Virus record (IMG/VR): IMGVR_UViG_3300042691_010113
Coordinates: 1 to 26,680 of that record
DNA length: 26,680 nt
From: a virus
Strand: one strand, 5' to 3'
In this document: in pieces, positions 8,229 to 26,323 of the stretch
Layout: the number at the start of each line of letters is the position of its first letter
How positions within the stretch are numbered: position 1 is the first letter of the stretch
The notes under the pieces: model-generated
What the model was told of the DNA's origin: nothing
The model's input: only the letters and a program-made list of their open reading frames with translations
Databases searched by the model: none
Translations under genes and position numbers: made by a program

Positions 8229-8539
8229 TTTATCTTCAATATGCCCGTTTCCACGGACTGGTTAGCTAAAGTTGGGTCTGTGTTACTGCTGCTGGACTGA
8301 GCGTAAATGGTGTATTCGTACTCTCCTTTTTCCCATGCGCCGCTTTGGCCGGTTGTGATGTTAAATTGATTGTACCTGGTGGGGAAGCTGCTCAAATCCG
8401 TGACGATTAAATTATAGGTGATGTCACGTTCTTCGCGGTTGTTCAATGACAGCAGGAAGTAATACGGAGGGTTTAACGTTACCTTTTCCGTGGCTGTCAC
8501 GTATAGCGTACTCAGTTGAGTGGTGTCAATTATGAGCAT
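8225..8539 (-). CDS. small beta-rich structural protein
   Basis: A 104-residue protein that looks like one beta-sandwich: alternating strands (YYFLLSLNNREERDITYNLI, FNITTGQSGAWEKGEYEYTI) and no cysteines, membrane segment or signal. The GEYEYTIYAQ pattern recalls Ig-like or decoration domains found in phage virions. It is the first gene of the portal-fibre-lysis run, starts four bases from the third copy of the 26-bp element, and overlaps the portal gene by four bases. A head-decoration or portal-associated role is inferred from position and fold type; no family is recognised. Confidence 0.7.
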   Translation of the reverse strand: MLIIDTTQLSTLYVTATEKVTLNPPYYFLLSLNNREERDITYNLIVTDLSSFPTRYNQFNITTGQSGAWEKGEYEYTIYAQSSSSNTDPTLANQSVETGILKIK

Positions 8540-8544
8540 TTACT

Positions 8545-8570
8545 TATAATGGGAAAAGTTGCTTTTTGTC
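8545..8570 (-). promoter_or_regulatory. 26-bp regulatory element, copy 3
   Basis: On the plus strand it begins TATAATGGGAAAAG and ends GCTTTTTGTC, with dyad AAAAG-TTG-CTTTT. It lies five bases before the ATG (8539) of the leftward gene and in the divergent gap with the rightward operon. It has the same length and fixed ends as the copies at 15372 and 21468. It is likely a late promoter or operator for the leftward transcript; effects on the rightward operon are also possible. Confidence 0.6.
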
Positions 8571-8582
8571 GTAACTTTGAAT

Positions 8583-9185
8583 ATGCGTTATCCGAAAAGT
8601 TGGAATGAAGTAAATTTAGCGCAACTGCATGAACTTGACCTGCTCCGGCAGCGAACTGACCTCGACCCCGAGGAAATCATGAACCAAATTCTTTCGGTTC
8701 TGAGTAATGAACATATCGAAAAAATTGAGGAGTTGCCGCACAACGAGCGCATCGCAGCCTATCGAAAGCTGACCTTCCTTAACGAGTACCCTTCAAAGAA
8801 GCCAAAGCGCAAAAGGTTTAAGTTGGGCGGTAAATGGTATCGCATCGTGACAAATCCAGCTGAGGTGAGTGCAGGCGAATACGCAACCTTGCAGGTGGTG
8901 GCAGCGGATGGAAAGTTCATACAGAATATGCCGCAGGTAATCGCCTGTCTGATGATAGAACAGGAGCGCAAATGGTTCAGATGGGTGGACGTAAGGTATG
9001 ATAAATCACGCAGTGCGCAAGAATTTCAACGTAAAGCAGCATTAGTCAGTCAGAAAATGCCTGTTGGGCAGGCGTACCCCTACGCGCTTTTTTTTTCGAA
9101 TCTCTTACCCGAATTATTGAAAGCTTCCCTCACCTTTTTCCAACAGCAGGAGAAGAAGCTGAGGAAGGAAGCAATGACTGGTTAG
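8583..9185 (+). CDS. tail assembly chaperone, short form (frame 0)
   Basis: A 200-residue protein starting at ATG 8583 (MRYPKSWNEVNLAQLHELDL); a TTG at 8559 would place the start inside the 26-bp element. It is soluble and mostly helical with a basic beta segment (KRKRFKLGGKWYRIVTNPAE) and a helix with VSAGEYATLQVV. This layout is seen in Bacteroidota phage proteins thought to be the lambda gpG counterpart. The chaperone coats the tape measure protein and recruits tail-tube subunits. Near its end a T run contains a slippery T TTT TTT (9089-9095), and the -1 frame beyond it is open to 9379. It is unusually placed, ahead of the terminase and on the strand opposite the tail genes. Confidence 0.7.
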   Translation: MRYPKSWNEVNLAQLHELDLLRQRTDLDPEEIMNQILSVLSNEHIEKIEELPHNERIAAYRKLTFLNEYPSKKPKRKRFKLGGKWYRIVTNPAEVSAGEYATLQVVAADGKFIQNMPQVIACLMIEQERKWFRWVDVRYDKSRSAQEFQRKAALVSQKMPVGQAYPYALFFSNLLPELLKASLTFFQQQEKKLRKEAMTG

Positions 9186-9379
9186 GAATGTTTTACAGAA
9201 TGGCCGGGAAAGACCTCACGAAGATGGACGCCGTCATGGCAATGCCCCTGATGGAGTTCTTCAATTATGCCGCCCTTCTGAAGACAATGGATAGGGATAG
9301 AGAAGATAGGTTGAATCGAGCGAGCAATGCTGGGCCTGAATTCTATATGGCTCAACTTATGTGGGAATTAAAGCAATGA
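8583..9379 (+). CDS. tail assembly chaperone, long form by -1 frameshift
   Basis: Reading frame 0 to the codon ending at base 9095 and then slipping back one base gives 171 + 94 = 265 residues ending at TGA 9377-9379. The -1 frame between the slip and the internal ATG at 9188 reads FESLTRIIESFPHLFPTAG and then EEAEEGSNDWLG with no stop, and the following part is helical (DLTKMDAVMAMPLMEFFNYA). This is the G/GT arrangement known from lambda and many tailed phages: two products with the same N-terminus in a fixed ratio. The last four bases (ATGA) overlap the terminase start. Treating 9188-9379 as a separate gene would miss the fusion. A sequencing error in the T run is the alternative. Confidence 0.7.
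9088..9096 (+). promoter_or_regulatory. slippery T run for -1 frameshifting
   Basis: Nine T in a row after GCGC. In frame 0 the codons are CTT TTT TTT TCG, so T TTT TTT at 9089-9095 is a perfect X XXY YYZ heptamer. Slipping back one base opens the frame to 9379. I see no clear downstream hairpin or pseudoknot. Transcriptional slippage on nine T could give the same products. Confidence 0.7.
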
Positions 9380-10560
9380 AGATAAAGTACCAACGCCCAC
9401 CCCTTGCGCCGTATCAAATCGCTATACTTGACAGCACGGCGCGTTATACCGTAACCGCTGCCAGCACGAAGGCTGGAAAGACCGCATCGCATATTGTATG
9501 GCTGTTTGAAAAGGCACTTCAGGGAAAGAAGGGGCAGTCCTTTTGGTGGGTTGCGCCTGTTTACGGTCAGGCAGAAATCGCGTTCAGGCGTTTTAAGCAG
9601 CAATGCTCTGAGCGGCTGTTCGATGCGAACGAAAGTAAATTAAGATTGACCTTGCCAACGGGCGCAATGATTGAATTTAAGTCAGCAGAAAAGCCCGACA
9701 ACCTTTATGGCGATGATGTGTACGCGGCTGTGTTTGATGAGTTCACACGCGCCAGGGAAGAAGCATGGTTTGCCCTTCGTTCCACGCTGACCAAAACCCG
9801 GGGGCAATGCAAGCTGATCGGGAACGTGAAAGGCAAAAAGAACTGGGGCTATCGTTTAGCAGAACGCGCAAGGCAGGGGGAGGACAATTACGAATTCCAC
9901 AAAATTACCGCTTGGGACGCGGTAAACGCTGGCATATTGGAACGCGAAGAAGTCGAACAGGCAGAACGTGACCTTCCCGCGCACGTCTTTAAGGAGTTGT
10001 ACCTCGCCGAACCCGCAGACGATGATTCAAACCCTTTCGGACTGGACCACATTCGCTCATGCATCGAACCTTTAGCGCAAGGCCCGGTTGAGTGGTACGG
10101 CATTGACCTTGCAAAATCCCGAGATTGGACCGTAATAATTGGACTAAATCAGTCCAAAAAGGTAGCCTTCTTTGAGCGTTTCCGGTTAGACTGGAAGGCA
10201 ACACGCGACACGGTGCAGCGAATTGTCGGGAGAACGCCTGCCGTAATTGACAGCACGGGTGTTGGCGACCCGATTGTCGAAGACTTGCAGCGCGTTTGCC
10301 CACGTATTCAGGGCTTCAAATACACCTCTACAAGTAAACAGCAAATCATGGAAGACCTGGCAGGCGCAATCCACGGGCGGGAAATCATTTTCCCGGACGG
10401 CCCGATAGTGGATGAACTGATGAACTTTGAATGGACGCACACAAGGACAGGCATAAGCTACAATGCTCCTGAAGGGCTGCATGATGACTGCGTGAACGGG
10501 CTTGCTTTGGCCCTGCATTGCAGCCGTGTAAACAAAAAGGGCCTATTTTTGCTGACATGA
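9376..10560 (+). CDS. terL: terminase large subunit
   Basis: A 394-residue motor-nuclease that packages DNA into the prohead through the portal. The start is ATG 9376, overlapping the chaperone stop by four bases (ATGA); a GTG at 9361 would extend it by five residues. ATPase motifs: an atypical Walker A S30-TKAGKT36, and Walker B AAVFDE at 117-122 with the catalytic glutamate E122. RNase-H-type nuclease acidic residues: D244 (YGIDLAKSRDW), D292 (VIDSTGVGD) and D370-D371 (HDDCVNGLALAL). The length is at the short end for the family. The small subunit gene lies about 14 kb to the right on the other strand, an unusual separation. Confidence 0.93.
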   Translation: MKIKYQRPPLAPYQIAILDSTARYTVTAASTKAGKTASHIVWLFEKALQGKKGQSFWWVAPVYGQAEIAFRRFKQQCSERLFDANESKLRLTLPTGAMIEFKSAEKPDNLYGDDVYAAVFDEFTRAREEAWFALRSTLTKTRGQCKLIGNVKGKKNWGYRLAERARQGEDNYEFHKITAWDAVNAGILEREEVEQAERDLPAHVFKELYLAEPADDDSNPFGLDHIRSCIEPLAQGPVEWYGIDLAKSRDWTVIIGLNQSKKVAFFERFRLDWKATRDTVQRIVGRTPAVIDSTGVGDPIVEDLQRVCPRIQGFKYTSTSKQQIMEDLAGAIHGREIIFPDGPIVDELMNFEWTHTRTGISYNAPEGLHDDCVNGLALALHCSRVNKKGLFLLT

Positions 10561-11195
10561 CACACACCAGCGAAACATACAACGTGGACTGCATGGAACT
10601 TATGGCGCAGTACCCTGATAAATACTTTGATTTGGCAGTTGTTGATCCTCCGTATGGGATAGGAATAATTAAAACAGAACTAGGGAATTACGGTATAAGG
10701 CCAAAAAACTTTACAGGAAGTATGGATAAAAGCTGTGGGTGGGATTTTGAAAGGCCAAGCAAAGAATATTTTATTGAATTGGATAGAATAGCTAAAAATT
10801 ACATTGTTTGGGGTGGTAATTATTTTATGGATTTGATACAAAAAGCATCTTCCTGTTGGTTGGTTTGGGATAAAAAAAATGGAGCAAGCTATTGGGCAGA
10901 TAGCGAATTGGCTTTTACAACTTTTAAAACTGCTACAAGGCTTTTTAGTAATACATCTGTAAAGAATAACCGCATCCACCCCACGCAAAAACCCGTTGCG
11001 CTTTACGATTGGATTTTTAAGAACTACGCGCAAGAAGGGCAGAAGATACTTGACACGCATTTAGGGTCAGGCAGCAGCAGGATTGCCGCGTGGAAGGCTA
11101 AACTAAACTTTGTCGGGTGCGAACTTGACACGGACTATTTCGGCGCACAAGAAAAAAGATTCGCGGAGTTCCGCAAGCAATTAACTATGTTTTGA
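10557..11195 (+). CDS. DNA methyltransferase (N6-adenine or N4-cytosine type)
   Basis: A 212-residue enzyme starting at ATG 10557, four bases overlapping the terminase stop. The catalytic DPPYG is at 30-34. HPTQKPVALYDWIFKNY precedes the SAM-binding DTHLGSG at 166-172, followed by FVGCELD. The order catalytic motif then SAM motif is that of the beta class, which methylates the amino group of adenine or cytosine. No restriction endonuclease is adjacent, so it is likely an orphan enzyme protecting phage DNA from host restriction or marking it for regulation. Bases of about 10621-10980 are AT-rich (about 35% GC by hand count), but both ends of the gene match the surroundings, suggesting recombination inside the gene. 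Confidence 0.88.
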   Translation: MTHTSETYNVDCMELMAQYPDKYFDLAVVDPPYGIGIIKTELGNYGIRPKNFTGSMDKSCGWDFERPSKEYFIELDRIAKNYIVWGGNYFMDLIQKASSCWLVWDKKNGASYWADSELAFTTFKTATRLFSNTSVKNNRIHPTQKPVALYDWIFKNYAQEGQKILDTHLGSGSSRIAAWKAKLNFVGCELDTDYFGAQEKRFAEFRKQLTMF

Positions 11196-11683
11196 AAACA
11201 CCTATTGAAATCCTCGCCTCCGAAACATGGCCGGAAATGGTCTGCAAGAAGTATAGCCCCGCGCATTGGAAAGACTTGCAGCAGGAGTTGTTTCTACTGA
11301 TTGCCACGGAGTTGAGCGACAAGGCAGCACGGGCGCAGGAGGCAGGGTACTTCGAGTTTTTTTACATCCGGTGCGCCGCGAACCTTTGCAAGCCGAACGG
11401 CACGTTAGGCAGCCTGAACATCGGAACAGATAGCATTGAGGGCTGGGATATTGCCGAGGAAGAAGACGAATTTAGGGAACGCAAAGAGGCTGATGTGCAG
11501 GAAAAGTTAGACGCGATTGCGATTGTTCAAAGCCGCGAGCCGTGGTATGAATCGAAGATGATGGAGTTGTACCTATCGGGAATGAGCATGAGGAAGATAC
11601 ACCGCTTGACGGGAATTGCCCTGAATGAGGTGAGCCGGGTAATTAATGACTTCCGGGCGAAGTGCCGCGAGGAATACTTTTAA
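11192..11683 (+). CDS. sigma-factor-like / helix-turn-helix protein
   Basis: A 163-residue protein. The start is TTG 11192, overlapping the methyltransferase stop (TTGA), the same spacing as the two upstream junctions; no early ATG is better placed. Residues 25-60 (HWKDLQQELFLLIATELSD, EFFYIRCAANL) resemble the core-binding helices of sigma-70 region 2. The end (MELYLSGMSMRKIHRLTGIA, LNEVSRVINDFRAKC) resembles region 4, a helix-turn-helix. The acidic middle is a linker. It may direct host RNA polymerase to phage late promoters, or be a terminase-linked DNA-binding protein. It ends convergently with the PAPS-reductase-like gene, their stops overlapping. The function is inference. Confidence 0.65.
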   Translation: MKTPIEILASETWPEMVCKKYSPAHWKDLQQELFLLIATELSDKAARAQEAGYFEFFYIRCAANLCKPNGTLGSLNIGTDSIEGWDIAEEEDEFRERKEADVQEKLDAIAIVQSREPWYESKMMELYLSGMSMRKIHRLTGIALNEVSRVINDFRAKCREEYF

Positions 11684-12438
11684 TCCGTATTGCAGAAACA
11701 TTCAAACGAAGGGTCGTTGTCGAATAGCTGCGGACTGATTTCAGCAACTTCGCGTATTTGCCGATATGTGATTTCTTTCTTAAATGTCGCGCCGCCTTGC
11801 TCGAATTGTTCCCACCATGCGAAGAGGTCTGGACGCTCACGGGCAATAGTTGCAAGTTTACCCTTGCCTTTTAGGAAGCATAAATCGCAATTCCCGTAAG
11901 GTTCTTTTAAATTCAGGTCAAAATCTTGCTTCGCCCAAAATTCCAATACATCCTTTTTAGACACTCGCCAATGCACCAGAGGGTAAATCGGTGTCATGTA
12001 TTCAGGGTGGTTCGCCAATTTTCCCCAGCGGCGTGGTTCATCGTGCCGTATTCCGATGAATGAATCCCACTCTTGAATGCCAATGCTTTGCAAGTACCGC
12101 CGCGCTGTTTGGATTTTCATCTGATTGGTGCAATACCGCATCATTTGATTGGGTAAAAAGTGCTTATTGTGCGCGATTAATTCAGCAAATGGCCGTCCGT
12201 CACGGCTCGCGGTGTCGTAGTTAACCACTTCAAAATTATTGCCGTATCTGTACTCTAACCACACGATGTTCAGGCCCCATCGTACATCGCATTCATTGAT
12301 AAAATCCAATGTCTGCGGCATTTCTTTGCCTGTGTTTTGAAACAAAACGAGATATTCGCCCGGCTGTTCTGTAATTAGCCTGTGCGTCATGTAGGCCGAT
12401 GTGCGGCCTCCTGAGAATTGAATTACGTTTGCGTGCAT
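11680..12438 (-). CDS. PAPS-reductase-family PP-loop protein
   Basis: A 252-residue protein starting at ATG 12438 (MHANVIQFSGGRTSAYMT). An upstream TTG at 12501 is rejected because the terminator and promoter elements lie between them. The PP-loop SGGRTS at 9-14 binds ATP or PAPS. RYCTNQMKIQTARRYL and the cysteines CDLC and FECFC near the C-terminus are typical of phage members of the phosphoadenosine phosphosulfate reductase family and of DndC-like relatives. The cysteines may bind an Fe-S cluster or zinc. Roles known for the family include sulfate-adduct reduction, DNA phosphorothioation and nucleotide activation; none can be picked here, and no dnd genes are seen. It has its own TATATTTG element and stands alone. 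Confidence 0.8.
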   Translation of the reverse strand: MHANVIQFSGGRTSAYMTHRLITEQPGEYLVLFQNTGKEMPQTLDFINECDVRWGLNIVWLEYRYGNNFEVVNYDTASRDGRPFAELIAHNKHFLPNQMMRYCTNQMKIQTARRYLQSIGIQEWDSFIGIRHDEPRRWGKLANHPEYMTPIYPLVHWRVSKKDVLEFWAKQDFDLNLKEPYGNCDLCFLKGKGKLATIARERPDLFAWWEQFEQGGATFKKEITYRQIREVAEISPQLFDNDPSFECFCNTD

Positions 12439-12445
12439 AGTGTTG

Positions 12446-12453
12446 CAAATATA
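12446..12453 (-). promoter_or_regulatory. Bacteroidota-type -7 element TATATTTG
   Basis: TATATTTG followed by CAACACT and then the ATG at 12438 on the minus strand. It matches the TAnnTTTG consensus. No good TTTG lies 19-21 bases upstream, and the spacing implies a nearly leaderless transcript, so it is a moderate call. It follows the terminator directly, as expected for a separate transcription unit. Confidence 0.5.
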
Positions 12454-12457
12454 AAGC

Positions 12458-12485
12458 AAAAAGGCCACCCCGAAGGGCAGCCTTT
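12458..12485 (-). terminator. intrinsic terminator after the major tail protein gene
   Basis: On the minus strand a hairpin AAAGGCTGCCC-TTCG-GGGTGGCCTTT (11 pairs, two of them G-U) with a stable TTCG loop runs straight into TTTTT. It ends the leftward transcript that carries the major tail protein gene. On the plus strand the hairpin has only a short T tract, so it works mainly leftward. Confidence 0.85.
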
Positions 12486-12514
12486 CCACACCATAACACA
12501 AAACGTTTACGAAG

Positions 12515-13030
12515 TTACGATATTCCGAGCGAAGTCAATACACCGCTCTGAACAATTTGGGGCGGTTCTTTTTCAGCGTGGGTGAAGGTCAGGTCGTAGC
12601 CAGTCATATCCCCGAGGGCAACGCCAGTCATAAAGCTGCCAGCAGTCATGTCCATGCCGCGAGCAAGGCCCATAGCCCAGTAATCGCCTGCATTTGTTTT
12701 CACGATAGCCACAAGACGGGCAACACTCAGCAACTTCACTTCATTGCGCTTCGCGGTGGACAGCTTGCGCAGCTTGATGTTCAGTTCCGCGCTGTTAAAC
12801 ACCGTGCCATTTTCCACACTTGGTGTAATGGTGTTGGTGAAAGAAGCAGTGTCTTTAGGCAGTTCGTATTTGAAGAACGCCTTGCCGCCATTAAGGGTCA
12901 GGGCAGACACTTCGCCAGAGGCAGAAGTGTAAGAGGAAACGCCCTCGTATTCGAGGAGCCATATTTTGTCTACGCCACCTACTGAATCTTTGCAGTCGTG
13001 GCTAAATCCGGTTGTTAGTATGCAACTCAT
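12515..13030 (-). CDS. probable major tail tube protein
   Basis: A 171-residue protein, beta-rich with a central helix (KLRKLSTAKRNEVKLLSVAR), in the size range of siphovirus tail-tube subunits. It contains FTNTITPSVENGTVFNS and a GLARGMDMTAGSFMTGVALG stretch. Proteins of this design occur next to the capsid gene in Bacteroidota phages and polymerise into the tail tube around the tape measure. It is separated from the capsid gene by a terminator and followed by another, which would allow strong expression from its own transcript. No clear TAnnTTTG promoter is visible in the 70 bases upstream. Assigned from size, fold type and neighbours. Confidence 0.75.
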   Translation of the reverse strand: MSCILTTGFSHDCKDSVGGVDKIWLLEYEGVSSYTSASGEVSALTLNGGKAFFKYELPKDTASFTNTITPSVENGTVFNSAELNIKLRKLSTAKRNEVKLLSVARLVAIVKTNAGDYWAMGLARGMDMTAGSFMTGVALGDMTGYDLTFTHAEKEPPQIVQSGVLTSLGIS

Positions 13031-13044
13031 GTCTTTTTCTTAGG

Positions 13045-13079
13045 GTTTAAAAAGAAAGGGCGGGCATTGTTACCCGCCC
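13045..13079 (-). terminator. intrinsic terminator after the capsid gene
   Basis: On the minus strand a hairpin GGGCGGG-TAACAATG-CCCGCCC (7 GC pairs, 13058-13079) is followed by TTTCTTTTTAAA. It lies 25 bases after the capsid stop. It would end most capsid transcripts, with read-through or a further start feeding the tail-tube gene. Confidence 0.8.
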
Positions 13080-13103
13080 CTTCGGTTAATGTTTCCTGTC
13101 TAA

Positions 13104-14069
13104 TTACAGGGTGAAGTACACAATTTGAGTTGGGAAAGCAACCTGAACACCGTATTTGAACTCGGCGTTGAAGATGACGTTTTTCTTCACGGGGTCGCTG
13201 ATGAACTCAAAGTTCTCTTCTTCGCCCACCAGGTCAGTTCCAATGAAGTAGTTAGACCAGTAAGAGAAGTGGATTTTGTTTGATCCATTCAAGCCGGGCA
13301 GACCGTAAACCTTTGTTCCGGTGATAGGCTCGATAACCATGAACTGCTCACCGGTTTCTGGGTTATAGTGGTAGTTGTTGGAAGCAATCAGGTGCTGCTT
13401 GTACAACAGGAAGGTGTCTACGCCCATAGCAAAGAAGCGGTCTTCTTTGGCAAGGATGGCTTTGCCGTCGGTAGAAGCCTGAGCCTGATTGATCATCTTC
13501 AGGATGGCGTCGTCAATATTCGCAACGGTCAAAGAAGTGAGCTGAGTCCAGCCGCCACCAGTTGCGGGGTTGCCTTCGATTGGATCGCCTGCACCACCGA
13601 ATCCAAGAGCGGTAAGGATGGTATTGAAGCCGTCGAACTGGTTAGCAGCAATAGTTCCCTGCCAGATGTCTTCTTCCAGAGCGTCTGCAATCTTCGCGAT
13701 TTTCTCGTTACCGATTTGGTCAGCAAAAGGCAACTCATTGTCACCACCTGAACCAGCAGCCATTTGGGTCTGCATCCACTTGGTTTTGAGCGTCTTAGGG
13801 CACAGGGTTTCATAAACCTGAATGTCACCTACGCTCAAAGTGCGCTTGCTGAAAGTTGTGCTTCCAGAGGTGGTAGGTTCACAGCCGTTAGCTTGAAAGA
13901 AAACGGTGGAATCGAGGATGTTCAGGTTGTCGGAGGTTTTAATGCCCGGGATAACCTGCCCGGCTGCCTGAAGCATACCAGCGGTTTTGCCTCCGAAGAG
14001 GGCTTTGTACAGCAGGGGAAGGCGGTCTTCCTTGCCGTAGTTGTCTAGGTCAGTTACTACGAATGCCAT
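13104..14069 (-). CDS. major capsid protein
   Basis: A 321-residue protein with the features of a HK97-fold capsid subunit: an N-terminal arm (YGKEDRLPLLYKALFGGKTA), a spine helix region (DQIGNEKIAKIADALEEDIW), an axial region with ANIDDAILKMINQAQ, and a C-terminal beta region (VKKNVIFNAEFKYGVQVAFP). The first residues lack the long delta domain of self-scaffolding capsids, fitting a separate scaffold, probably the C-terminus of the gene just upstream. The start at ATG 14069 is two bases from the protease-scaffold stop. The strong terminator after it is typical of the most expressed gene in a phage. Confidence 0.85.
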   Translation of the reverse strand: MAFVVTDLDNYGKEDRLPLLYKALFGGKTAGMLQAAGQVIPGIKTSDNLNILDSTVFFQANGCEPTTSGSTTFSKRTLSVGDIQVYETLCPKTLKTKWMQTQMAAGSGGDNELPFADQIGNEKIAKIADALEEDIWQGTIAANQFDGFNTILTALGFGGAGDPIEGNPATGGGWTQLTSLTVANIDDAILKMINQAQASTDGKAILAKEDRFFAMGVDTFLLYKQHLIASNNYHYNPETGEQFMVIEPITGTKVYGLPGLNGSNKIHFSYWSNYFIGTDLVGEEENFEFISDPVKKNVIFNAEFKYGVQVAFPTQIVYFTL

Positions 14070-14071
14070 GT

Positions 14072-15367
14072 TTATTTTTGGGTTTTAATTTTTCGAATTG
14101 CTTCTGCAAATTTTTCAATGCGCTCTTCACGGCGTGCAGCTTCGCCTTTGAGTGCGTTTACTTTCTTAGCTGGTTCAGCAGCGGGAATCGCGCTGAACTG
14201 CTCGATAACTTCCAGCGTCTTTGCCTGTGCGTTGGTCAGATTTTCAACAAGTCCGGTCAGACGTGCGATAAGTGCTGATTGTTCGTTGAACTTCGCCTCA
14301 AATTCAGCCTCCACCCTGGCAAAGCCCTGATTTTGCTCAACGGGGACAGGCTCAACTTCACCCTTTTCAACGATTTGCGTCACTACACCGCCCTCGGTTG
14401 TTACCAAGTAGCCTTCGGCTGTTTCATGTGTGCCATCGGGTGCGGGTACGAACTCACCGTCTGGTGTCTGCACTTCAAGAACTGAACCTACGCCAAGCAT
14501 GGCGATTTCGTCACCGGGGAAACGGATAACCGTTCCGTCTACAAGAGTGCTTTCGGCAAACTTTACGGCAGGGGTTTCCTCCTCTACCGAAAAGCCGAGC
14601 AGCTTCTTGATTTCGTTAATTTTTGATATTGCGCTCATTTCATCTAATGGATTATTTTCTGAATTGTCGTACTTTGTAAGGATAGCTTCGATAGCCGCCA
14701 TTGTCTGTTCTTCGCTGCTTGCGGGTTTGTCCGTGAAATAACCCTCAATGGAAAATCCTTTGAACTTACCATCCTTGATGTTCTGCCACACAGCGTCATC
14801 TTCCACGTAATAGGAAAGAAACCAACTGCCCTCCGGAGCATCTGCCCACATCTGCGGAGGGTTTATCCCGCGTTCTTTGTCCACGATGAACGATTCCAGC
14901 AAGTGCATACCGCCCACGGGGTTCGCGTGTTCAGCGTTCACCGCGTTGTATTTGTTCTGCAAGGCCCACAGCTTCACCGCTTTCTGAATCGTTGCCGCGC
15001 TGAACTTCACATAATAGGTAGTGCCGTCTTCAGCCCTGCGAAGAATGGGCTTTTCTGCAATCATTGCCGGGCCTGTGATGATGCGGCGTTCCTCGGATTG
15101 AATAGCGAATGATTGCTGCACCTTGTTTCGGTCTTCCCAGTAGGAATAACAGATAGCCACCGCCTGTTCTTGGTCTTTGCCTTCGCCAATCAGCACAGGC
15201 ACACACCGACCGATAAAGTCCTCTTCGGTTTCGTTTGCTGTCGGGGTAACGAATTTATCCGCGCTGAAGAAGTGGAAATCTTCCTCAATAGCGGGTGACT
15301 GCACAAGGCTGACTTGGGTCAGGCCATCTCCGTCTTCAATCTCTAAATAGTATATAGGGTCGTTCAT
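14072..15367 (-). CDS. XkdF-like prohead protease with scaffold-like C-terminus
   Basis: A 431-residue protein. Residues of about 50-70 hold a CVPVLIGEGKDQEQAVAICY motif seen in many Bacteroidota phage head proteins. Residues of about 85-215 match the XkdF-like serine protease family: RRIITGPAMIAEKPILRR, AATIQKAVKLWALQ, an AEHANPVGGMHLLESFIVD stretch with the conserved histidine and serine, and KDGKFKGFSIEGYF. The tail (from about 330) has heptad-like ARVEAEFEAKFNEQSALIAR and a lysine-rich end, typical of capsid scaffolds, which are removed by the protease during head maturation. It starts four bases from the second 26-bp element, so it heads the head-gene transcript, and precedes the capsid gene by two bases. 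Confidence 0.85.
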   Translation of the reverse strand: MNDPIYYLEIEDGDGLTQVSLVQSPAIEEDFHFFSADKFVTPTANETEEDFIGRCVPVLIGEGKDQEQAVAICYSYWEDRNKVQQSFAIQSEERRIITGPAMIAEKPILRRAEDGTTYYVKFSAATIQKAVKLWALQNKYNAVNAEHANPVGGMHLLESFIVDKERGINPPQMWADAPEGSWFLSYYVEDDAVWQNIKDGKFKGFSIEGYFTDKPASSEEQTMAAIEAILTKYDNSENNPLDEMSAISKINEIKKLLGFSVEEETPAVKFAESTLVDGTVIRFPGDEIAMLGVGSVLEVQTPDGEFVPAPDGTHETAEGYLVTTEGGVVTQIVEKGEVEPVPVEQNQGFARVEAEFEAKFNEQSALIARLTGLVENLTNAQAKTLEVIEQFSAIPAAEPAKKVNALKGEAARREERIEKFAEAIRKIKTQK

Positions 15368-15371
15368 TTTC

Positions 15372-15397
15372 TATAATGGTGAAAAATGTCATTTGTC
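15372..15397 (-). promoter_or_regulatory. 26-bp regulatory element, copy 2
   Basis: On the plus strand it begins TATAATGGTGAAAAATG and ends TCATTTGTC, with dyad AAATG-T-CATTT. Its left end is four bases before ATG 15367 of the protease gene, and its right end covers the last codons and stop of the gp10-like gene. A regulatory element kept inside coding sequence is evidence that it is functional. Confidence 0.65.
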
Positions 15398-15985
15398 TTG
15401 CTTTGCCATGACGGAAATGGAAAGGGCTATCTTCTGCCCCATCGCCCGTCCAAGGTATTCCGCGAACTCATCAAAGGTTGCGTCGTTGATGATTTTGCTG
15501 AAGAACTTGTTGCCGACCGTACCCTTCTTGTTGATTTTCCGCGCCACGGCATAGGCGAAATTGTTTCGCCGCTGTGCATCGGTCTTGCCCCATTCATTGC
15601 CAAGGATGATTCCTTTTTGTCGTACCCATCCCATGTCACCACCAAGCGCACGGAACAAAGGCCCGACCGGCTGCCCTGGTTTTTGGCCTTGATCAACCTG
15701 AAGGTAGTAGTCGTTAGCATTGATTGCACCGATAACATCATCACCCCTCCTGCGCGTCTTTGCTGCGTCTATTGACTGATAAAGGCTCATGCTTGCCCGG
15801 CCCGATGTTGGATTTCCGGGCATGGTGGAAGTAATTAGGCTGTTCTTCAGTCGTTCCGTTGTGTACTTTGCCCATCCATCCACCAGGTCGGAAAGCAAAT
15901 CCCCTGTAAGGGTTGGCTGTTCTACCTCCGCTTTGCCGAGGCGGGAGAGGTACTGCCGCTGAAGTGCTGTGAGTTTGCCGTTCAT
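15389..15985 (-). CDS. gp10-like head-tail or minor tail protein
   Basis: A 198-residue basic protein. Its N-terminal half is helical (LLSDLVDGWAKYTTERLKNS), its middle has a YLQVDQGQKPGQPVGPLFRA loop, and the C-terminal part is NNFAYAVARKINKKGTVGNKFF. A loop followed by R-(K/R)-I-x-K-x-G-T near the end is typical of HK97 gp10-like neck or tail-terminator proteins of Bacteroidota phages. It overlaps the tape measure gene by four bases. Its stop (TGA at 15389-15391) lies within the second 26-bp element. The assignment rests on pattern and place. Confidence 0.65.
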   Translation of the reverse strand: MNGKLTALQRQYLSRLGKAEVEQPTLTGDLLSDLVDGWAKYTTERLKNSLITSTMPGNPTSGRASMSLYQSIDAAKTRRRGDDVIGAINANDYYLQVDQGQKPGQPVGPLFRALGGDMGWVRQKGIILGNEWGKTDAQRRNNFAYAVARKINKKGTVGNKFFSKIINDATFDEFAEYLGRAMGQKIALSISVMAKQDK

Positions 15986-17892
15986 AGCACAGATGTTTTG
16001 CGAAGGTTGCGCGTCCTACGCTGTGTTGCGCTGATGTCGCCCTCAGTTACATAAACTTTATTGCTCCATTGCCCGGCCTGCTGCGTTCCACCGCCGAGGC
16101 TGCTGCTGTTCATGGAAGGCATGGGAATGTTGCCACGGCCACCGCCTAACCCTGGAGAACCGCTGCCGCCTTGCTGAACATTGCCACCTTTGACAATCTT
16201 CACCGCCCTTGCAGACGCGCTGAGGATGGCTGCTGAAATGGCTGCGTATTTGGCAATACCTGCAAGGCCACCCGTTGCCACATTGTCCGGGGAAGGTGAA
16301 GAAGTGGTATTTAATGCCTTCGCAATCGCTACGCCCGTATCCGCTGCAATTTGTGCAAGGGCAATCGCTTTGCCTGCTGCTGTCTGCTGCCCAATTAGGT
16401 CAATTAGCGCGCTGCTTGCAGTCATTACATCGGCGTAGGCTTGTTTCTTCGTGTCGGCTACCGTCTTATCAATTTCTTTTTGCTTCGCCGCCGCGTCCTC
16501 TGCGTTCTTCAGGCGCATTGCTTCAAGTTCCTTTTCCTGTTCGATAGTAGCCTGCCCGTAATCGCGCCGCGCCTGGATTTCGTTTTGCAGTTCGCGTTTC
16601 CTGATTTCCGTTTGCGCCTTTTGTAAATCCTCCTGCGTTTTGGCTGCCTTCATTGCGGCAAGTTCTTCTTCATCGTATTTCGATTGGATGAAGGAAAGCT
16701 CATCCTGTGCTGCCTTTTCGCGCTGTGCCTTCAGCGTGTCCTGCTGTTTCTTTTGCGCGTCTTCCTGTTCCTTGTAATAGGTTGCACGAACCTTGTTTAG
16801 TTCAGCGTTTAGAAGCATTTGAATCTGAACTTCAGAATATCCTTTTTCTTTGAGCGTCCGGATTTCCTTTTCAAAATTCAGTTGAGTGATAGCCAGACGG
16901 TTATCGAGCGTATCTTCATGAAGTTTCAGCATTGCAACATTGCGTTCTATGCTGTTCTGTTCTGCCTCGATACGTTTTTCTTCCGCTTCGCGGGCCAGTT
17001 CTTCGCGCTTTTTCCTGCGCTCTTCAGCTTTATCCTCTGCGTCTTCCTGTTCTTCGATATTCTTTTTCTTAACGCGTGTCTTTTCACGTTCACGCTCCAA
17101 TGTCATGAGGTGGTTTAATTCTTCGCGCCGGGCATTTTCTTCTTCAGTCAATGCCCTCTGTTTCCAGACGAAATAAATTTGGTCAAGTTCTACCTTCAGA
17201 CGCTTAACCCTTGCCCTGTATATCTCCTCTTCAGTTGCACCCTTTGCCTCTAATAATTCTACCTCACGTTCCAAGCCTGTAATGGCTTTTTTGTTCATCT
17301 CCTCAAGTGTTTTCCAATCGGTAAGGCCAAAGAATTTACGAAACGCGCTGGTCACTTTATCCCAGTTCGCAGCAAGCATACCAACTGCCACCACTATTGC
17401 ACCTACTCCCGTGGCAATCAGCGCACCTCGCAAAGTTCCTAAAGCGGGAATGACCTGCGTCATGATTGTGGTTTGCAGCCCGGCAAACATGAACTGCATA
17501 TCCTTCAAGCTTGCTACACCTTGCGCAAGTGCCATTGCACCCTGAACGCGAAGCATAGCTTTTTGCAAATCCTCACTTTCCGAACCAAGTAAAGCCGCTG
17601 CCCCTTGTGCCGCTGCAAAGCCATTGGCCATCGTTCCTGTAATATTTGCAATCATTTGGAACTTATCGGGATGAAGACCTTTTATCGTGGCGTTTACATC
17701 ATCCATCCTGTCCTTCAGTTGCGCTACTTTCTGTGCCGCTGCAAGGGTTCTTGAATCCGTTTCGCCGAAAGCCGCCGCCAGCCTTAACGCCTCCTGCTGT
17801 GCTTCGCGTATCTGCGCTTTAAAGGATTTTACGGACTGATCCCCGCTCACGGAGGCTTGCACCTCAACTGGTTGTACTATTTTTTTCGCCAT
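15982..17892 (-). CDS. tape measure protein
   Basis: A 636-residue protein whose length sets the tail length. Residues 1-75 are helical (SVKSFKAQIREAQQEALRLA). Residues of about 140-175 form a hydrophobic stretch (IPALGTLRGALIATGVGAIV), probably membrane-active in DNA entry. Residues of about 195-490 form a long charged coiled coil rich in E, K, R and Q. Then an alanine-rich hydrophobic region (AGKAIALAQIAADTGVAIAK) and a glycine-rich tail follow. By the usual rule of about 1.5 angstrom per residue the tail would be about 95 nm; this is a rule-of-thumb estimate. Its stop and start overlap both neighbours, and the chaperone it needs is encoded in a separate rightward block. Confidence 0.9.
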   Translation of the reverse strand: MAKKIVQPVEVQASVSGDQSVKSFKAQIREAQQEALRLAAAFGETDSRTLAAAQKVAQLKDRMDDVNATIKGLHPDKFQMIANITGTMANGFAAAQGAAALLGSESEDLQKAMLRVQGAMALAQGVASLKDMQFMFAGLQTTIMTQVIPALGTLRGALIATGVGAIVVAVGMLAANWDKVTSAFRKFFGLTDWKTLEEMNKKAITGLEREVELLEAKGATEEEIYRARVKRLKVELDQIYFVWKQRALTEEENARREELNHLMTLEREREKTRVKKKNIEEQEDAEDKAEERRKKREELAREAEEKRIEAEQNSIERNVAMLKLHEDTLDNRLAITQLNFEKEIRTLKEKGYSEVQIQMLLNAELNKVRATYYKEQEDAQKKQQDTLKAQREKAAQDELSFIQSKYDEEELAAMKAAKTQEDLQKAQTEIRKRELQNEIQARRDYGQATIEQEKELEAMRLKNAEDAAAKQKEIDKTVADTKKQAYADVMTASSALIDLIGQQTAAGKAIALAQIAADTGVAIAKALNTTSSPSPDNVATGGLAGIAKYAAISAAILSASARAVKIVKGGNVQQGGSGSPGLGGGRGNIPMPSMNSSSLGGGTQQAGQWSNKVYVTEGDISATQRRTRNLRKTSVL

Positions 17893-20279
17893 TATACTTC
17901 TTTAATCAATACCACGTTCCAATCCGCGCCTGTCCATTCAATAGCAGGTCGGTAAACATCGCCTGTGGTGGGTGCGCCGATGTCCTTGTAAGTTAAATTA
18001 ACTACGCCTTGTGTCCAGTCTACTATCGGCCCTTTGCCGCCTTCGTTGCTGCCTCCGAGCGTACTCCATGCAAAGCGTTTCTTTTTGCCGATGGGCCGCG
18101 TCCTGATGTTGGGGAAAGCATCGTTATTCGTGTCCTTAATATCGTACCCTCCCCCGGCTGCCCCGGTCTGCGGGGTGAAGACGTTTGCCGTTTTGATTTT
18201 CAGGAACTCACACTCGATAAGTTCGCTTTCGCCCACCTGGTAGTCCTGTATTTTATTCAGTCGGAAATACTGCCCCTGGAAGAAATACAAATCACGAAAT
18301 GACCATTTAAGCCAATCCGCCGGAGTGATGTAAACGCGCGCCGTAACGATCCGGCTGTTTCGGTCGGTGATTTCCGTCAGGTACTTGCGCCAATACACGT
18401 TAAAAAGGTTATTGTTTGTGTAGGTGACGCCTGCCGGGAGGTTCACATAAGCAGGCATCCCGAAGGACAGGTCAATAGTCGGCGTGAAAGGGTCATCCAA
18501 ATGCCCCGCGTGGGGGTAGCCTTCCACCGTATCTACTCCGGTAGGGCCTGCAAAGAGTTTGAACGCATCGCATAAAACCCACTCTTCGTTACCTATTTTA
18601 CCTGACCAGTAAAGAATACGCAGCGTTCCCGCCTTTTCTTCCGCGGTTTCCATGCTTGCAATGCGGAAATTATTGCTGCTTTCCGTGCTGTACGGCGTGG
18701 AGGCAAATATGGTTTCCGTTTTGCGCTCATCCTTTATCAGGTCGTTATCTACAATAATCCGCGCTTCGCCGTACACCGTGCCGATTGCGTCTACATACTC
18801 CTTTGAATCATCATCATCACCTTTCGCGTAGGTGAAGACATACGGGTTGCCCTCAAGTTCGCCCATCGGGGTTATGGTCATTGGCTGCGAATAATCAATT
18901 TTGGCTGTTAGGTCATGAATCACCGTATCGCGGTAAAACGTGTCGCGTGGTGCAATGTATAACTCGTTGGTGCGTCCGGTTGGCTCAATGTAAAGGTTGA
19001 ACATCTTTACCAAGCTGTTTAGAAACTCATCCTGTTTCCACTTGCCACCGGTGAAAATGCCGTTCATGTCCACCGTGGAATCCAGTCCGTATGAAGTTTG
19101 GATAGGCTCAATGCGAATCCAGCTATTTGCCTTAATTGTAATAACTCCCCCGGTCAGCACTTCGCCCATCCGCGCGTCCGTGTAATCCAGCACTTCAATA
19201 ATACGGATGTCTATTTTCTCGTTTTTATCTGCATAAACATCATTAATGGTGAAGGTAAAGGTCTTTGTTGCGCCGCTGCCCGTGTTCACCATGCGCAAAG
19301 GGTTGTGCAGTTCTGCCAATTTCCCATCCACATAAACCCCGACCGTCATAGTGATGTAGGGCGTGGTGATGTGGTTAATTCCGGTAATGGTTACGCCGAT
19401 GCTTCCCGATACGCTGAACCTCCCGCCGCCGGTTGGGCTGTTGTATTTTCCCGTTGTGGTGTCAAAGTTGCCTCCATTGTCCCAATAACCGCTGCTGCTG
19501 TCGTCGTTAAAAACAATCGTGCTGCCTTCTAAATAGCTTTGGTCAGCCGTGCGCCTTGCTCGGGCCTTGCGTGAAAATATCACGGCCTCGTTTACTTGTG
19601 GAACGCCGGGAGAAGGAATGACCAGTTTTTTAAATAGTTCAGTATTGAAAAACGAATCCGAAGTATATGAAAATCCTGCGCTGGTAAATATCTTATCAAC
19701 TAAGGTTTTCGCAAAAACAGCCGGGTAAAAATCCTGCACCCTCCACACAATCGAAAAAGGAACATCGGTTCTGTTTCGGTCTATCATGGGGTAAACGTAC
19801 CCGCTTGCCGGGGTGAAGTTCCAACTGTTGATGATGTTGGTGCGGTTCAGGGTATGGTTAAATTCCGAAAGGTCAATGTCTGCTAATTGCTTATTTCGAA
19901 TCTTCGCAAACAGGTCAGCCGCCTGCCCATGAACTGAAACTTCGTATTCGATTTGCCCTTTGCGAACCACGCTGATGTTTAACAGCCTAACATATCCGCG
20001 CACCTGTTCCACCTCATCTACGGTAACGAGGGCAGCCGCTTTCTTGTTCGGGTTGAAGTCTGGCGCGAACTGCGTTCCGTTGTTTAGCTGCTCCTGATTT
20101 ACGTCGAAGATGTGGCCGAATAGCTTGTTATTGGCTGATGTTCCCGGGATGCGAAATGTGCGCGACCAATCGGATGAACGCTGCGATGGTTCCCGGATGT
20201 CGGCAATCTCCCGCGTTACTTGCAGAACTTCGTTTTCCGAAAGGTCAACCTGCCGCCCTTCAATGAACAGCCGCATCAT
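17892..20279 (-). CDS. tail-tip / baseplate protein
   Basis: A 795-residue protein with no membrane segment. It starts at ATG 20279 (MMRLFIEGRQVDLSENEVLQ); a second ATG at 20276 is possible. The N-terminus with ADIREPSQRSSDWSRTFRIP and KAAALVTVDEVEQVRGYVRL is typical of a large protein encoded directly after the tape measure in Bacteroidota phages, likely the tail-tip hub or tail-associated protein. The middle (about 225-390) is a beta-sandwich insert, perhaps carbohydrate-binding, and the C-terminus is beta-rich. It overlaps the upstream tail gene by four bases and the tape measure by one. The exact hub or spike role is inferred. Confidence 0.75.
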   Translation of the reverse strand: MMRLFIEGRQVDLSENEVLQVTREIADIREPSQRSSDWSRTFRIPGTSANNKLFGHIFDVNQEQLNNGTQFAPDFNPNKKAAALVTVDEVEQVRGYVRLLNISVVRKGQIEYEVSVHGQAADLFAKIRNKQLADIDLSEFNHTLNRTNIINSWNFTPASGYVYPMIDRNRTDVPFSIVWRVQDFYPAVFAKTLVDKIFTSAGFSYTSDSFFNTELFKKLVIPSPGVPQVNEAVIFSRKARARRTADQSYLEGSTIVFNDDSSSGYWDNGGNFDTTTGKYNSPTGGGRFSVSGSIGVTITGINHITTPYITMTVGVYVDGKLAELHNPLRMVNTGSGATKTFTFTINDVYADKNEKIDIRIIEVLDYTDARMGEVLTGGVITIKANSWIRIEPIQTSYGLDSTVDMNGIFTGGKWKQDEFLNSLVKMFNLYIEPTGRTNELYIAPRDTFYRDTVIHDLTAKIDYSQPMTITPMGELEGNPYVFTYAKGDDDDSKEYVDAIGTVYGEARIIVDNDLIKDERKTETIFASTPYSTESSNNFRIASMETAEEKAGTLRILYWSGKIGNEEWVLCDAFKLFAGPTGVDTVEGYPHAGHLDDPFTPTIDLSFGMPAYVNLPAGVTYTNNNLFNVYWRKYLTEITDRNSRIVTARVYITPADWLKWSFRDLYFFQGQYFRLNKIQDYQVGESELIECEFLKIKTANVFTPQTGAAGGGYDIKDTNNDAFPNIRTRPIGKKKRFAWSTLGGSNEGGKGPIVDWTQGVVNLTYKDIGAPTTGDVYRPAIEWTGADWNVVLIKEV

Positions 20280-21463
20280 AAACGCTGCCTCCTGTTTGTC
20301 AGGGCGCGTTGGATCGTGACAGAATACTGCACCAAGCCGTCCCTGTTGTACTTGCGCTCAAACTCAGTGGAGTTTACAGTAACCTTTTCAAGTGCGCTGA
20401 ACGCACCCATGTAAACCACAGGGCTAAAGAGTAATTGCTCGATGTACTCCGCCTCCGTGTCCGTGAGAAAGTCAGTATTCAAAGTCCATTGCTCCGTAAG
20501 CATGGTGTTGTAATTGGTGACACCGCCGCGCGCGTTGGAATAGTTGTAAGCCCCGGTGGTGTAGCGGAAAGAATCCTGCTCAAAGGTTTTCTTTTCTCCT
20601 GTCAAATTTCGCACCGTTCGTTTTCTGAAGGTGTAAGAATCGAACCCACCTAAAGTGTTCAGGAAGTGAAGTGTTACCGGGTCATATTTGCTGCACTCCT
20701 GCCACAGGTCGAAGCGCATGGTTTCCGATGCCTTGCCTGCATAGCCGGACGGGTAGGCCTGCACGGTGTAGTAATCAGCAGCCGAAGAAAACCCGATGTT
20801 GTTAAACGTGCAATCAGCCGCAAGCAGCCTGCTTTTGTAGTCAACATAGGTGAATGTCTTCTGCACCGTCTGAAGCAGCGAACCTGCCGCGTTGTAACTC
20901 TTGAACTCAAACACCTTGTTTACCGTGTCAGTACCAAACAGCGCATGAATGGTGTGCGCCTCATCTGCCTGCACCTTGCGAGGGCGAACCGTGGTCAGGA
21001 ATTGCGCCCCGGCTGTTCCACCTGAAGCGGTCAGGTAGTCGGCTTGAGCGTACCCTAAAAAGTCCTGAACAGGTAAGCAAGCATCCCAACTGAATTTGTT
21101 CCCGGTATTGACTACCCCGGTAGCCTCCGTTACAACCCCGCTGCCATATTCGTAACCGAACTTTGCCCGATAGGTAACGATGCGAGGCTGCCCGACAACC
21201 GCCGCCGCTGATGGTGGCTCAAAGTCGTTGCCAACGTAGGAAGCAATGATTTCGGTGATGTCGAAAACCGCTTCGTTTTGGCTGCTTCCATAGCGAATGG
21301 GGGCTTTAAGTTTTGCCTGAATCGTGCCGTCTATCTCCACCTCACATAGGTAGCGGAAATTGCTTGCTCCTGTTATTGCCGTGTCCGTTTCGCGTACAAC
21401 GAAGGTCAGCGGATTAAAAGCGGGTGAGTAGTCTTGCGGCTGCTGCTGAATTGAGTAGGCCAT
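20276..21463 (-). CDS. tail-tip protein, first gene of the tail transcript
   Basis: A 395-residue beta-rich protein (FNPLTFVVRETDTAITGASN, YRAKFGYEYGSGVVTEATG). The C-terminal third (EQWTLNTDFLTDTEAEYIEQ, LLFSPVVYMG) resembles a conserved domain in proteins that pair with the tail-tip protein in Bacteroidota phages. It may be a distal tail or collar component. It starts four bases from the first 26-bp element, and the gene-free block upstream holds a terminator, so this gene opens a new transcript of tail genes. No catalytic motif is seen. Confidence 0.7.
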   Translation of the reverse strand: MAYSIQQQPQDYSPAFNPLTFVVRETDTAITGASNFRYLCEVEIDGTIQAKLKAPIRYGSSQNEAVFDITEIIASYVGNDFEPPSAAAVVGQPRIVTYRAKFGYEYGSGVVTEATGVVNTGNKFSWDACLPVQDFLGYAQADYLTASGGTAGAQFLTTVRPRKVQADEAHTIHALFGTDTVNKVFEFKSYNAAGSLLQTVQKTFTYVDYKSRLLAADCTFNNIGFSSAADYYTVQAYPSGYAGKASETMRFDLWQECSKYDPVTLHFLNTLGGFDSYTFRKRTVRNLTGEKKTFEQDSFRYTTGAYNYSNARGGVTNYNTMLTEQWTLNTDFLTDTEAEYIEQLLFSPVVYMGAFSALEKVTVNSTEFERKYNRDGLVQYSVTIQRALTNRRQRL

Positions 21464-21467
21464 TTCC

Positions 21468-21493
21468 TATAATGGGGAAAATGGCATTTTGTC
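21468..21493 (-). promoter_or_regulatory. 26-bp regulatory element, copy 1
   Basis: On the plus strand it begins TATAATGGGGAAAATG and ends GCATTTTGTC, with dyad AAAATG-G-CATTTT. It lies four bases before ATG 21463 of the first tail gene and directly after the 32-bp dyad. It shares length and both ends with the copies at 8545 and 15372 and probably starts the tail-gene transcript. Confidence 0.65.
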
Positions 21494-21525: not shown

Positions 21526-21552
21526 AAAGAAAAGGGCAGCTTTCGCCGCCCT
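21520..21552 (-). terminator. intrinsic terminator upstream of the tail transcript
   Basis: On the minus strand a hairpin AGGGCGGC-GAAA-GCTGCCCT (8 pairs, one G-U; 21533-21552) with a GNRA loop is followed by TTTTCTTTTTATC. It would stop leftward transcripts coming from the 21833-26680 genes and the tRNA block, isolating the tail operon. Confidence 0.85.
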
Positions 21553-21832
21553 AATCTATGGAACAGAATAAGCCGCCCCGCTCCACCTACATCAGCGTAC
21601 CTGTTGGAAACAAGTCGTTCGGAGGCTGCAGAGCGGCTTTGCGACCGGGGCAGGATTCGAACCTGCATCGCCGTTTTTACCTCAGCATCTCCTTTTTAAA
21701 GGATACGTTCTACCAATTCACGCTCCCGGTCAGTTGCCTTTAATCCGCTGAAGGCTAACAGCCGCACCTTACGATGTGCGCCCGGGATTTCGCAGCTTGC
21801 TGTTCCGGGGGTTACGTTCCGCTCGTCAGCGG
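21553..21832. other. gene-free structured block around the tRNA
   Basis: No convincing ORF is seen here. Besides the tRNA, the 70 bases at 21570-21639 are closed by AAGCCGC/GCGGCTT and hold a 6-pair hairpin (CTTGTT-TCC-AACAGG). The 100 bases at 21733-21832 hold several hairpins (CCGCT-GACG-AGCGG right after the upstream stop; CGCAC...GTGCG; CAG-CTTG-CTG within CCCGG...CCGGG). No second tRNA passes inspection, since no T-arm motif is present. It may be ncRNA or decayed tRNAs. Confidence 0.45.
21642..21731 (-). tRNA. tRNA, leucine-type (UAA anticodon), slightly degenerate
   Basis: A 90-base type II tRNA. Acceptor stem GACCGGG (5') pairs perfectly with CCCGGTC. The T arm GCAGG-TTCGAAT-CCTGC is canonical. 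The D loop contains AATTGGTAGA, as in leucine tRNAs, but the D stem is only 3 pairs. A long variable arm GCTG...CGGC has four pairs. The anticodon loop is TTTAAAAA, which reads UAA if counted from the 5' side, but has eight bases rather than seven, and the stem TATCC/GGAGA has one A-G mismatch. The discriminator is G, not the A usual for leucine. CCA is not encoded. A working phage tRNA, a frameshift-type tRNA or a decaying copy are all possible. Confidence 0.7.
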
Positions 21833-25541: not shown

Positions 25542-26323
25542 GACGGGTTTATTACAATGGGGTTTTCTTGTTTTTGTTCCATGCGGGCCAATCTGTCAAC
25601 GTGCCACTTCATGTTTGCGTTGTTGTACACCACGCCCCAGTTTTCACCGGTGCTTACCACGTTAGGGCAGTATGGCGAAAGTTCCAAAACTCGGGGCAGG
25701 TCGAATATCTCCGAAACGGCAAAGGGTGAAGATTGGTTTCCAAAGTGCATTAGCCCGTTAGCTATGACTTGTGCCATTTGCAGGAAATCGGGAGTTTCAA
25801 TGTGTTGCGCTTTCGGGCAAACCTTGGCGAACTTTTCAAACTCCTGCTGCACACCGATGAAAAACACATCGTACGGCTGTTCCTGTAACATTGCCCACTT
25901 TGCATCCCCTCCCGCCGCGTTGTTCCTGTACCGCTCCGAAAGGTTCACGGTGATGTAGCCATTGTTCAGACGATTGATGCGAAAGGCAGGCCCGGGCAAT
26001 AACTCAGGGTAAACCGAAAGAATCCAACGCCTGATGTCGTATGCAGAAAGGTTAATGCGCTGCTCCCTGAATAGGTCGAGATTGTAGTCAACTTTTTCAC
26101 CGTGCCACAATTCACACTTTATGCCGCAATACTCCACCAATGGCTTTAGCATTTCGCACATGGCCTCGTTAAGCATCACGCCGCCTCCCGGATGGGTCAA
26201 ACCCGCTGCGTATTGTGCAGGTCGGTCAGGGTTCAAGTACAGAGTGCCGCCGCCGTTTGCCCGGATGGTTGGCAGCATATAAATCACGTCACCCGCGTTG
26301 CCGCTGTGTAGGTAGGTCTTCAT
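25538..26323 (-). CDS. GT9-like glycosyltransferase
   Basis: A 261-residue protein with a heptosyltransferase-like GT-B layout. The N-terminal SGNAGDVIYMLPTIRANGGG matches the GDIIxxLPxxR start of the family. FFIGVQQEFEKFAKVCPKA and DFLQMAQVIANGLMHFGNQS, then SPFAVSEIFDLPRVL, match its C-terminal donor site. It would add a sugar to a glycan, possibly on the host envelope or the virion. It is shorter than bacterial heptosyltransferases (about 320-350 residues), with the middle reduced. It starts four bases into the upstream gene. Confidence 0.8.
   Translation of the reverse strand: MKTYLHSGNAGDVIYMLPTIRANGGGTLYLNPDRPAQYAAGLTHPGGGVMLNEAMCEMLKPLVEYCGIKCELWHGEKVDYNLDLFREQRINLSAYDIRRWILSVYPELLPGPAFRINRLNNGYITVNLSERYRNNAAGGDAKWAMLQEQPYDVFFIGVQQEFEKFAKVCPKAQHIETPDFLQMAQVIANGLMHFGNQSSPFAVSEIFDLPRVLELSPYCPNVVSTGENWGVVYNNANMKWHVDRLARMEQKQENPIVINPS

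Follow-up and report, generated by a model that had tools for sequence, protein, structure and literature searches.

The window (the whole 26,680-base virus record analysed here) carries a 26-bp bipartite element directly before the start codons of four leftward reading frames. We consider these elements probable late promoters, read by a phage-encoded ECF-type sigma factor (11192-11683) together with host RNA polymerase and giving rise to leaderless late mRNAs. Conservation, exact spacing, a site nested within a gene, concerted change between lineages and a sigma-like predicted fold are the observations that form the basis of this model.

Start-proximal elements in the window and its relatives

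Scanning the window for TATAATGG-N12-TTTGTC returned three matches on the plus strand, at 8545-8570, 15372-15397 and 21468-21493. The chance expectation for 14 fixed bases is 0.0002 matches, against three exact copies observed, and 60 shuffled windows contained at most two start-proximal copies of any two-block motif, compared with three in the real window. The minus (transcribed) strand gives the better reading: there TATAATGG appears as its complement, the conserved CCATTATA, and the three copies take the form GACAAA-N12-CCATTATA-N4/5-ATG. The genes that they head code for a 104-aa protein (its gene precedes the portal gene), the capsid protease (S78_2) and, at the start of the tail run, a 395-aa protein:

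8545-8570, minus strand: element A, GACAAAAAGCAACTTTTCCCATTATA, 5 nt before the ATG (8537-8539) of the 104-aa gene preceding the portal gene
15372-15397, minus strand: element B, GACAAATGACATTTTTCACCATTATA, 4 nt before the ATG (15365-15367) of the capsid protease gene
21468-21493, minus strand: element C, GACAAAATGCCATTTTCCCCATTATA, 4 nt before the ATG (21461-21463) of the 395-aa gene opening the tail run

The initial annotation had described these three copies, placed them 4-5 nt before the ATG of leftward genes, noted that one of them overlaps the end of a coding sequence, and judged the element to be unlike the host TAnnTTTG promoter. Each of these statements agreed with our scan: the matches were exact at all three positions with none elsewhere in the window, the distance to the ATG was true for all three, the copy at 15372 (element B) covers the last 9 nt (3’ end) of ORF 15389-15985, and the TAnnTTTG -7 box of the Bacteroidota sigma-A promoter was absent from every copy. 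A scan with the sigma-70 consensus yielded promoter-like matches that were no commoner than in shuffles. An additional copy with three mismatches is present at 7607. A fifth candidate element, at 25553-25578, was dropped because it is not conserved in relatives.

The TerL of this phage is below 60% identical to that of any annotated phage, with no cultured close relative, and a first genome scan using TerL alone gave no matches. Scanning IMG/VR with TerL produced 79 loci, which we divided by TerL identity into near (97-99%), medium (about 80-93%) and distant (67-71%) clades. The initial annotation had suggested looking for the element in related phages, and there it is indeed retained at orthologous genes. 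With the window included, the near and medium clades hold 17 sequence versions at A, 15 at B and 9 at C, and every near- or medium-clade relative examined has element A at the orthologous gene. When C sites were searched by the downstream part alone, 16 versions were recovered, 12 of which had ACA exactly in place; the remaining 4 have CGCATT instead of ACA and the medium-clade type of -10 block. In total, 55 distinct sites at four orthologous places hold the element at one length (26 bp) and one exact spacing, and the gap from element end to start codon is 3-6 nt. The conserved signal is a bipartite (G)ACA...CATTA, with CATTA invariant, ACA almost invariant and a freely varying spacer.

A copy inside the protease gene

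A degenerate fourth copy escaped the initial annotation. A weight matrix ranks 14643-14668 (GACAATTCAGAAAATAATCCATTAGA-TGAA-ATG) fifth in the window, and this site falls within the protease gene itself:

14643-14668, minus strand: element Bi, GACAATTCAGAAAATAATCCATTAGA, within the protease coding sequence; an in-frame internal ATG (14636-14638) follows after 4 nt
14072-15367, minus strand: capsid maturation protease, 431 aa, identified by Pfam Peptidase_S78_2
14072-14638, minus strand: nested 188-aa ORF, the C-terminal part of the protease gene, a probable scaffold protein

Bi is conserved at the DNA level in relatives. Synonymous variation, computed over 27 distinct protease sequences, reaches the minimum of 422 ten-codon windows in the Bi region (0.067-0.068, versus a gene median of 0.43). 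It is zero in these sequences at AAG, TRC, GAC, AAT, then xCA, TTA, xxx, GAA and ATG, and the leucine codon immediately before the frozen codons is freely variable. One relative (G003) has an equivalent site with CATTATA, and the CATTAGA form of Bi is also found at genuine B sites. Among loci fetched from IMG/VR, an ATG follows the internal pattern at the right spacing in 59, and when the pattern was made one base shorter as a spacing control, an ATG followed in none of 42 matches. Many copies inside genes, away from start codons, would have spoken against the element in the eyes of the initial annotation; the one extra copy, Bi, heads an in-frame nested ORF.

The homologue of the nested ORF in the distant clade is a stand-alone gene of 182-188 aa located between the protease and capsid genes (52-53% identity, E about 1e-15), and in part of this clade the stand-alone gene has its own start-proximal element (CTACCTTTTAAGATATG). 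The frozen codons, and the existence of a separate gene, partly with its own element, in distant relatives, indicate that the 188-aa ORF is very probably a nested scaffold gene, its position pointing to the scaffold role. A late element before the internal start suggests a separate transcript for the nested ORF, and such a nested promoter, if real, would explain how scaffold could exceed protease in amount.

A sigma-like protein and the late-promoter model

The proposed reader of the elements is encoded on the opposite strand:

11192-11683, plus strand: 163-aa ECF-sigma-like protein, from its AlphaFold2 fold, Foldseek and weak sequence hints

Relatives of this protein occur in the near, medium and distant clades. 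By sequence it reached none of the curated cut-offs (TIGR02937, Pfam, PHROG): TIGR02937 (sigma70-ECF) scored 12.3 bits, below its cut-off of 42.9, no Pfam sigma model matched, and the match to phrog_1740 (RNA polymerase sigma factor) was sub-threshold. Sequence searches of the PDB and Pfam returned nothing useful. Two AlphaFold2 models (pLDDT 81-82) have two helical domains and a poorly predicted linker, and the domains resemble sigma-2 and sigma-4, with modest E-values. The best Foldseek matches in the PDB are sigma factors, mostly of the ECF type (sigma-E, AlgU, SigK, SigW; E 0.02-0.05); taken by itself, the region-4 part can be superposed at about 2 A. Among the viral Foldseek matches (E 1e-4), most of those annotated with a function are phage sigma factors, one of them the ECF sigma factor of GAP52. 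As the individual E-values are modest, sigma identity rests on the consistency of these match lists, and we regard the protein as a candidate ECF-type sigma factor. An alignment scan covering prophage and MAG contigs of several phyla found the sigma-like protein in only three of them, all Bacteroidota (Mucilaginibacter pedocola and two MAGs).

The element varies between phage lineages and is alike at most sites within one genome. The -10 core is CCATTA in the near clade and ACATTA, usually TACATTA, in the medium clade, and distant genomes have CTACTTTT or GTACATTTA before homologous genes, again alike within a genome. Concerted change of this kind is expected if a trans factor reads the element. 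One relative (G001) is close to the window phage in TerL (98%) and portal (97%); its sigma-like protein, by contrast, shares only 80% identity, and ACATTA replaces CCATTA at three of the genome’s four sites. A diverging trans factor would leave this pattern, which nevertheless falls short of proof, because the G001 B site retains CCATTA, further G001 proteins have diverged too, and another locus (L230) has a mixture of site forms. In a Mucilaginibacter pedocola TBZ30 prophage (L274), TTTATAC occurs exactly 8 nt before the ATG at 1060, 3833, 14227 and 18774. This TTTATAC-N8-ATG motif is possibly that lineage’s version of the late element, a tentative reading given that the protease start is among the four, yet one gene looks TerD-like.

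Next to element A begins a divergent rightward operon that includes TerL, the methyltransferase and the sigma-like gene. Its start, and two hairpins on the leftward side, are as follows:

8572-8579, plus strand: TAACTTTG, a -7 box of host type; the ATG (8583) of the divergent rightward operon follows after 3 nt
21533-21552, minus strand: terminator-like hairpin and T tract, by pattern match only, 40 nt upstream of element C
13054-13083, minus strand: strong terminator-like hairpin, by pattern match only, after the probable capsid gene (13104-14069)

In many relatives, both near and distant ones, TAnnTTTG precedes the orthologous ATG by 3-4 nt; being the Bacteroidota sigma-A box, it supports a Bacteroidota host. 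With the sigma gene placed in a host-type operon, host-type transcription would make the phage sigma, and the leftward late promoters would then open. The hairpin at 21533-21552 would shield the tail run from transcription arriving from upstream, and that at 13054-13083, which separates the probable capsid gene from the gene following it in the run, may set their ratio. A tRNA-like gene (21641-21731, minus strand), to which ARAGORN assigns no amino acid, is directly upstream of the first of these hairpins and element C. The DNA methyltransferase gene (10518-11195, plus strand) adjoins TerL in the window; it is missing in some close relatives, and replaced or on the other side of TerL in others. 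Inside ORF 8583-9185 is a T9 tract (9088-9096, plus strand); in 32 relatives its TACGCGC-T9-C context is invariant and the surrounding codons show little synonymous variation. A -1 shift at this tract is open to 9379 and fuses the ORF to a 63-aa ORF (9188-9379), a layout that resembles the G/GT frameshift of tail-assembly chaperones.

In the model that we favor, the (G)ACA block would act as a -35 and CATTA(TA) as a -10 element, with an exactly fixed distance between them. Only about 6-8 nt separate the end of the -10 core from the start codon; transcription would therefore start at or next to this codon, and late mRNAs would be leaderless or nearly so. Four promoters would serve the portal/fibre/lysis run, the protease, the nested scaffold with the capsid, and the tail, and the rightward operon carrying TerL and the sigma gene would start at its host-type TAnnTTTG box, producing a switch from host to phage sigma. 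If the A of the ATG is the transcript start, CCATTATA occupies -12 to -5, the position at which the sigma-A -7 box sits in Flavobacterium (PMC9723704). A -10-like signal about 10-12 bp upstream of a start codon usually means a leaderless gene (PMC3160421), and the elements lie at this distance. Late promoters of a phage sigma factor are also recognizable by a repeated sequence upstream of late operons that is kept in related phages, as here; by fixed two-block spacing, here 26 bp in all 55 distinct sites, with medium-clade C sites lacking the ACA block; and by a phage-encoded sigma factor, here present by predicted fold and sub-threshold by sequence. From these features we infer promoter activity, binding by the 163-aa sigma, leaderless transcripts and late timing. 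Against the model stand the medium-clade C sites without ACA, the modest sigma E-values, and the fact that leaderless mRNAs are a minority in Flavobacterium, at 5.5% (PMC9723704).

The initial annotation offered three readings of the element, of which the late promoter is well supported, while the protein operator and the RNA hairpin did not survive. The latter two drew on a dyad said to be conserved and covarying, and each of the three window copies does contain a short inverted repeat, which would suit a site bound by a symmetric repressor or activator. However, near-identical phages have lost the dyad (GACAAATTGCACATTTCCCC, GACAAATGACCACTTTCACC), the three dyads of the window are centred at different positions, and the longest inverted-repeat arm over the 55 distinct orthologous sites has a mean of 2.5-3.3 bp, versus 2.4-3.0 bp in spacer shuffles. 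Because relatives lose the dyad and its register differs between copies, the apparent covariation is chance, and a dyad operator is almost certainly the wrong explanation. No stable fold of the element RNA was found (MFE usually 0, z near 0); on the relatives’ sites and this fold test, both operator and hairpin were rejected. The element could instead work in RNA without a hairpin, as part of a 5’ leader to which ribosomes or a translational regulator would be drawn, with transcripts starting further upstream. It does always lie immediately ahead of a start codon, even at the internal one, which requires an initiation signal of its own, and Bacteroidota lack Shine-Dalgarno signals (PMC6847099). 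We nevertheless find this very unlikely, since the motif drifts between phage lineages despite conserved ribosomes, the exact 26-bp length and free spacer suit a two-domain DNA-binding protein, and only four start codons in the window have the element, whose RNA shows no fold.

The elements might also be late promoters that a host sigma factor or a phage activator recognizes in place of the 163-aa protein, which is tied to them by fold, presence and partial covariation only. The -10 blocks of the medium and distant clades (TACATTA or TACNTTT-like) resemble TAnnTTTG, as recognition by the host would predict. The window form does not match it, though, while the divergent operon keeps a normal box; moreover, the motif drifts between phage lineages and the phage encodes a sigma-like protein of its own. 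Recognition by a host sigma factor or an activator is therefore unlikely, and we prefer late promoters read by the phage-encoded sigma factor.

Relation to known systems

T4 and SPO1 encode sigma factors with their own late promoters. That phage sigma factors can have late promoters of their own is thus already known, also from phiEco32 and 7-11 (PMC8948821). Here, unusually, the putative promoter is joined directly to the start codon at every late operon, one copy sits within the protease gene, and drift of the code can be seen. Our literature search found no description, for any Bacteroidota phage, of a late promoter or a late sigma factor, though its coverage was incomplete and this is weak evidence of absence. 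We put forward, tentatively and as something close to an even chance, that a widespread Bacteroidota-type phage group uses a handful of start-codon-fused promoters, leaderless late operons with a nested scaffold, and a fast-drifting ECF-type sigma whose code can be read lineage by lineage. The analysis supplies a candidate for the regulator together with its promoter code; it also supplies natural variants with changes in both regulator and sites, through which sigma-promoter specificity can be tested directly. Leaderless late mRNAs, if true, would bear on efficient phage translation in a phylum without Shine-Dalgarno signals.

Salmonella phage 7-11, with which Cronobacter phage GAP52 belongs, has several late promoters, bipartite and with a single spacing (GTAAtg-16-aCTA), whose sequence differs from those of related phages, and the role of its sigma factor, SaPh711_gp47, was shown in vitro (PMC8948821). 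The present phage likewise combines a phage-encoded sigma-like factor, here by fold, with bipartite, one-spacing elements upstream of late genes; it differs in the element sequence, the host phylum, the fusion of the element to the start codon, and the copy inside a gene. The middle/late promoters of phiEco32 gp36 (tAATGTAtA) start transcription 6-8 bp downstream of the element (PMC8948821), and CATTA here similarly ends 6-8 nt before the start codon and would form its own promoter class; the phiEco32 promoters, in contrast, are single elements without a -35, whereas the element here is bipartite. The Bacteroidota sigma-A promoter is matched in position, with CCATTATA placed as its box would be should transcripts begin at the start codon, and the medium-clade TACATTA shares TAnnTT with that box, but the window form lacks TAnnTTTG and the divergent operon has it. 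In lambda C/Nu3, the scaffold is read from an in-frame internal start within the capsid protease gene. The probable nested scaffold described here has the same arrangement, but in a protease of an unrelated family, and with a copy of the late element preceding its internal start.
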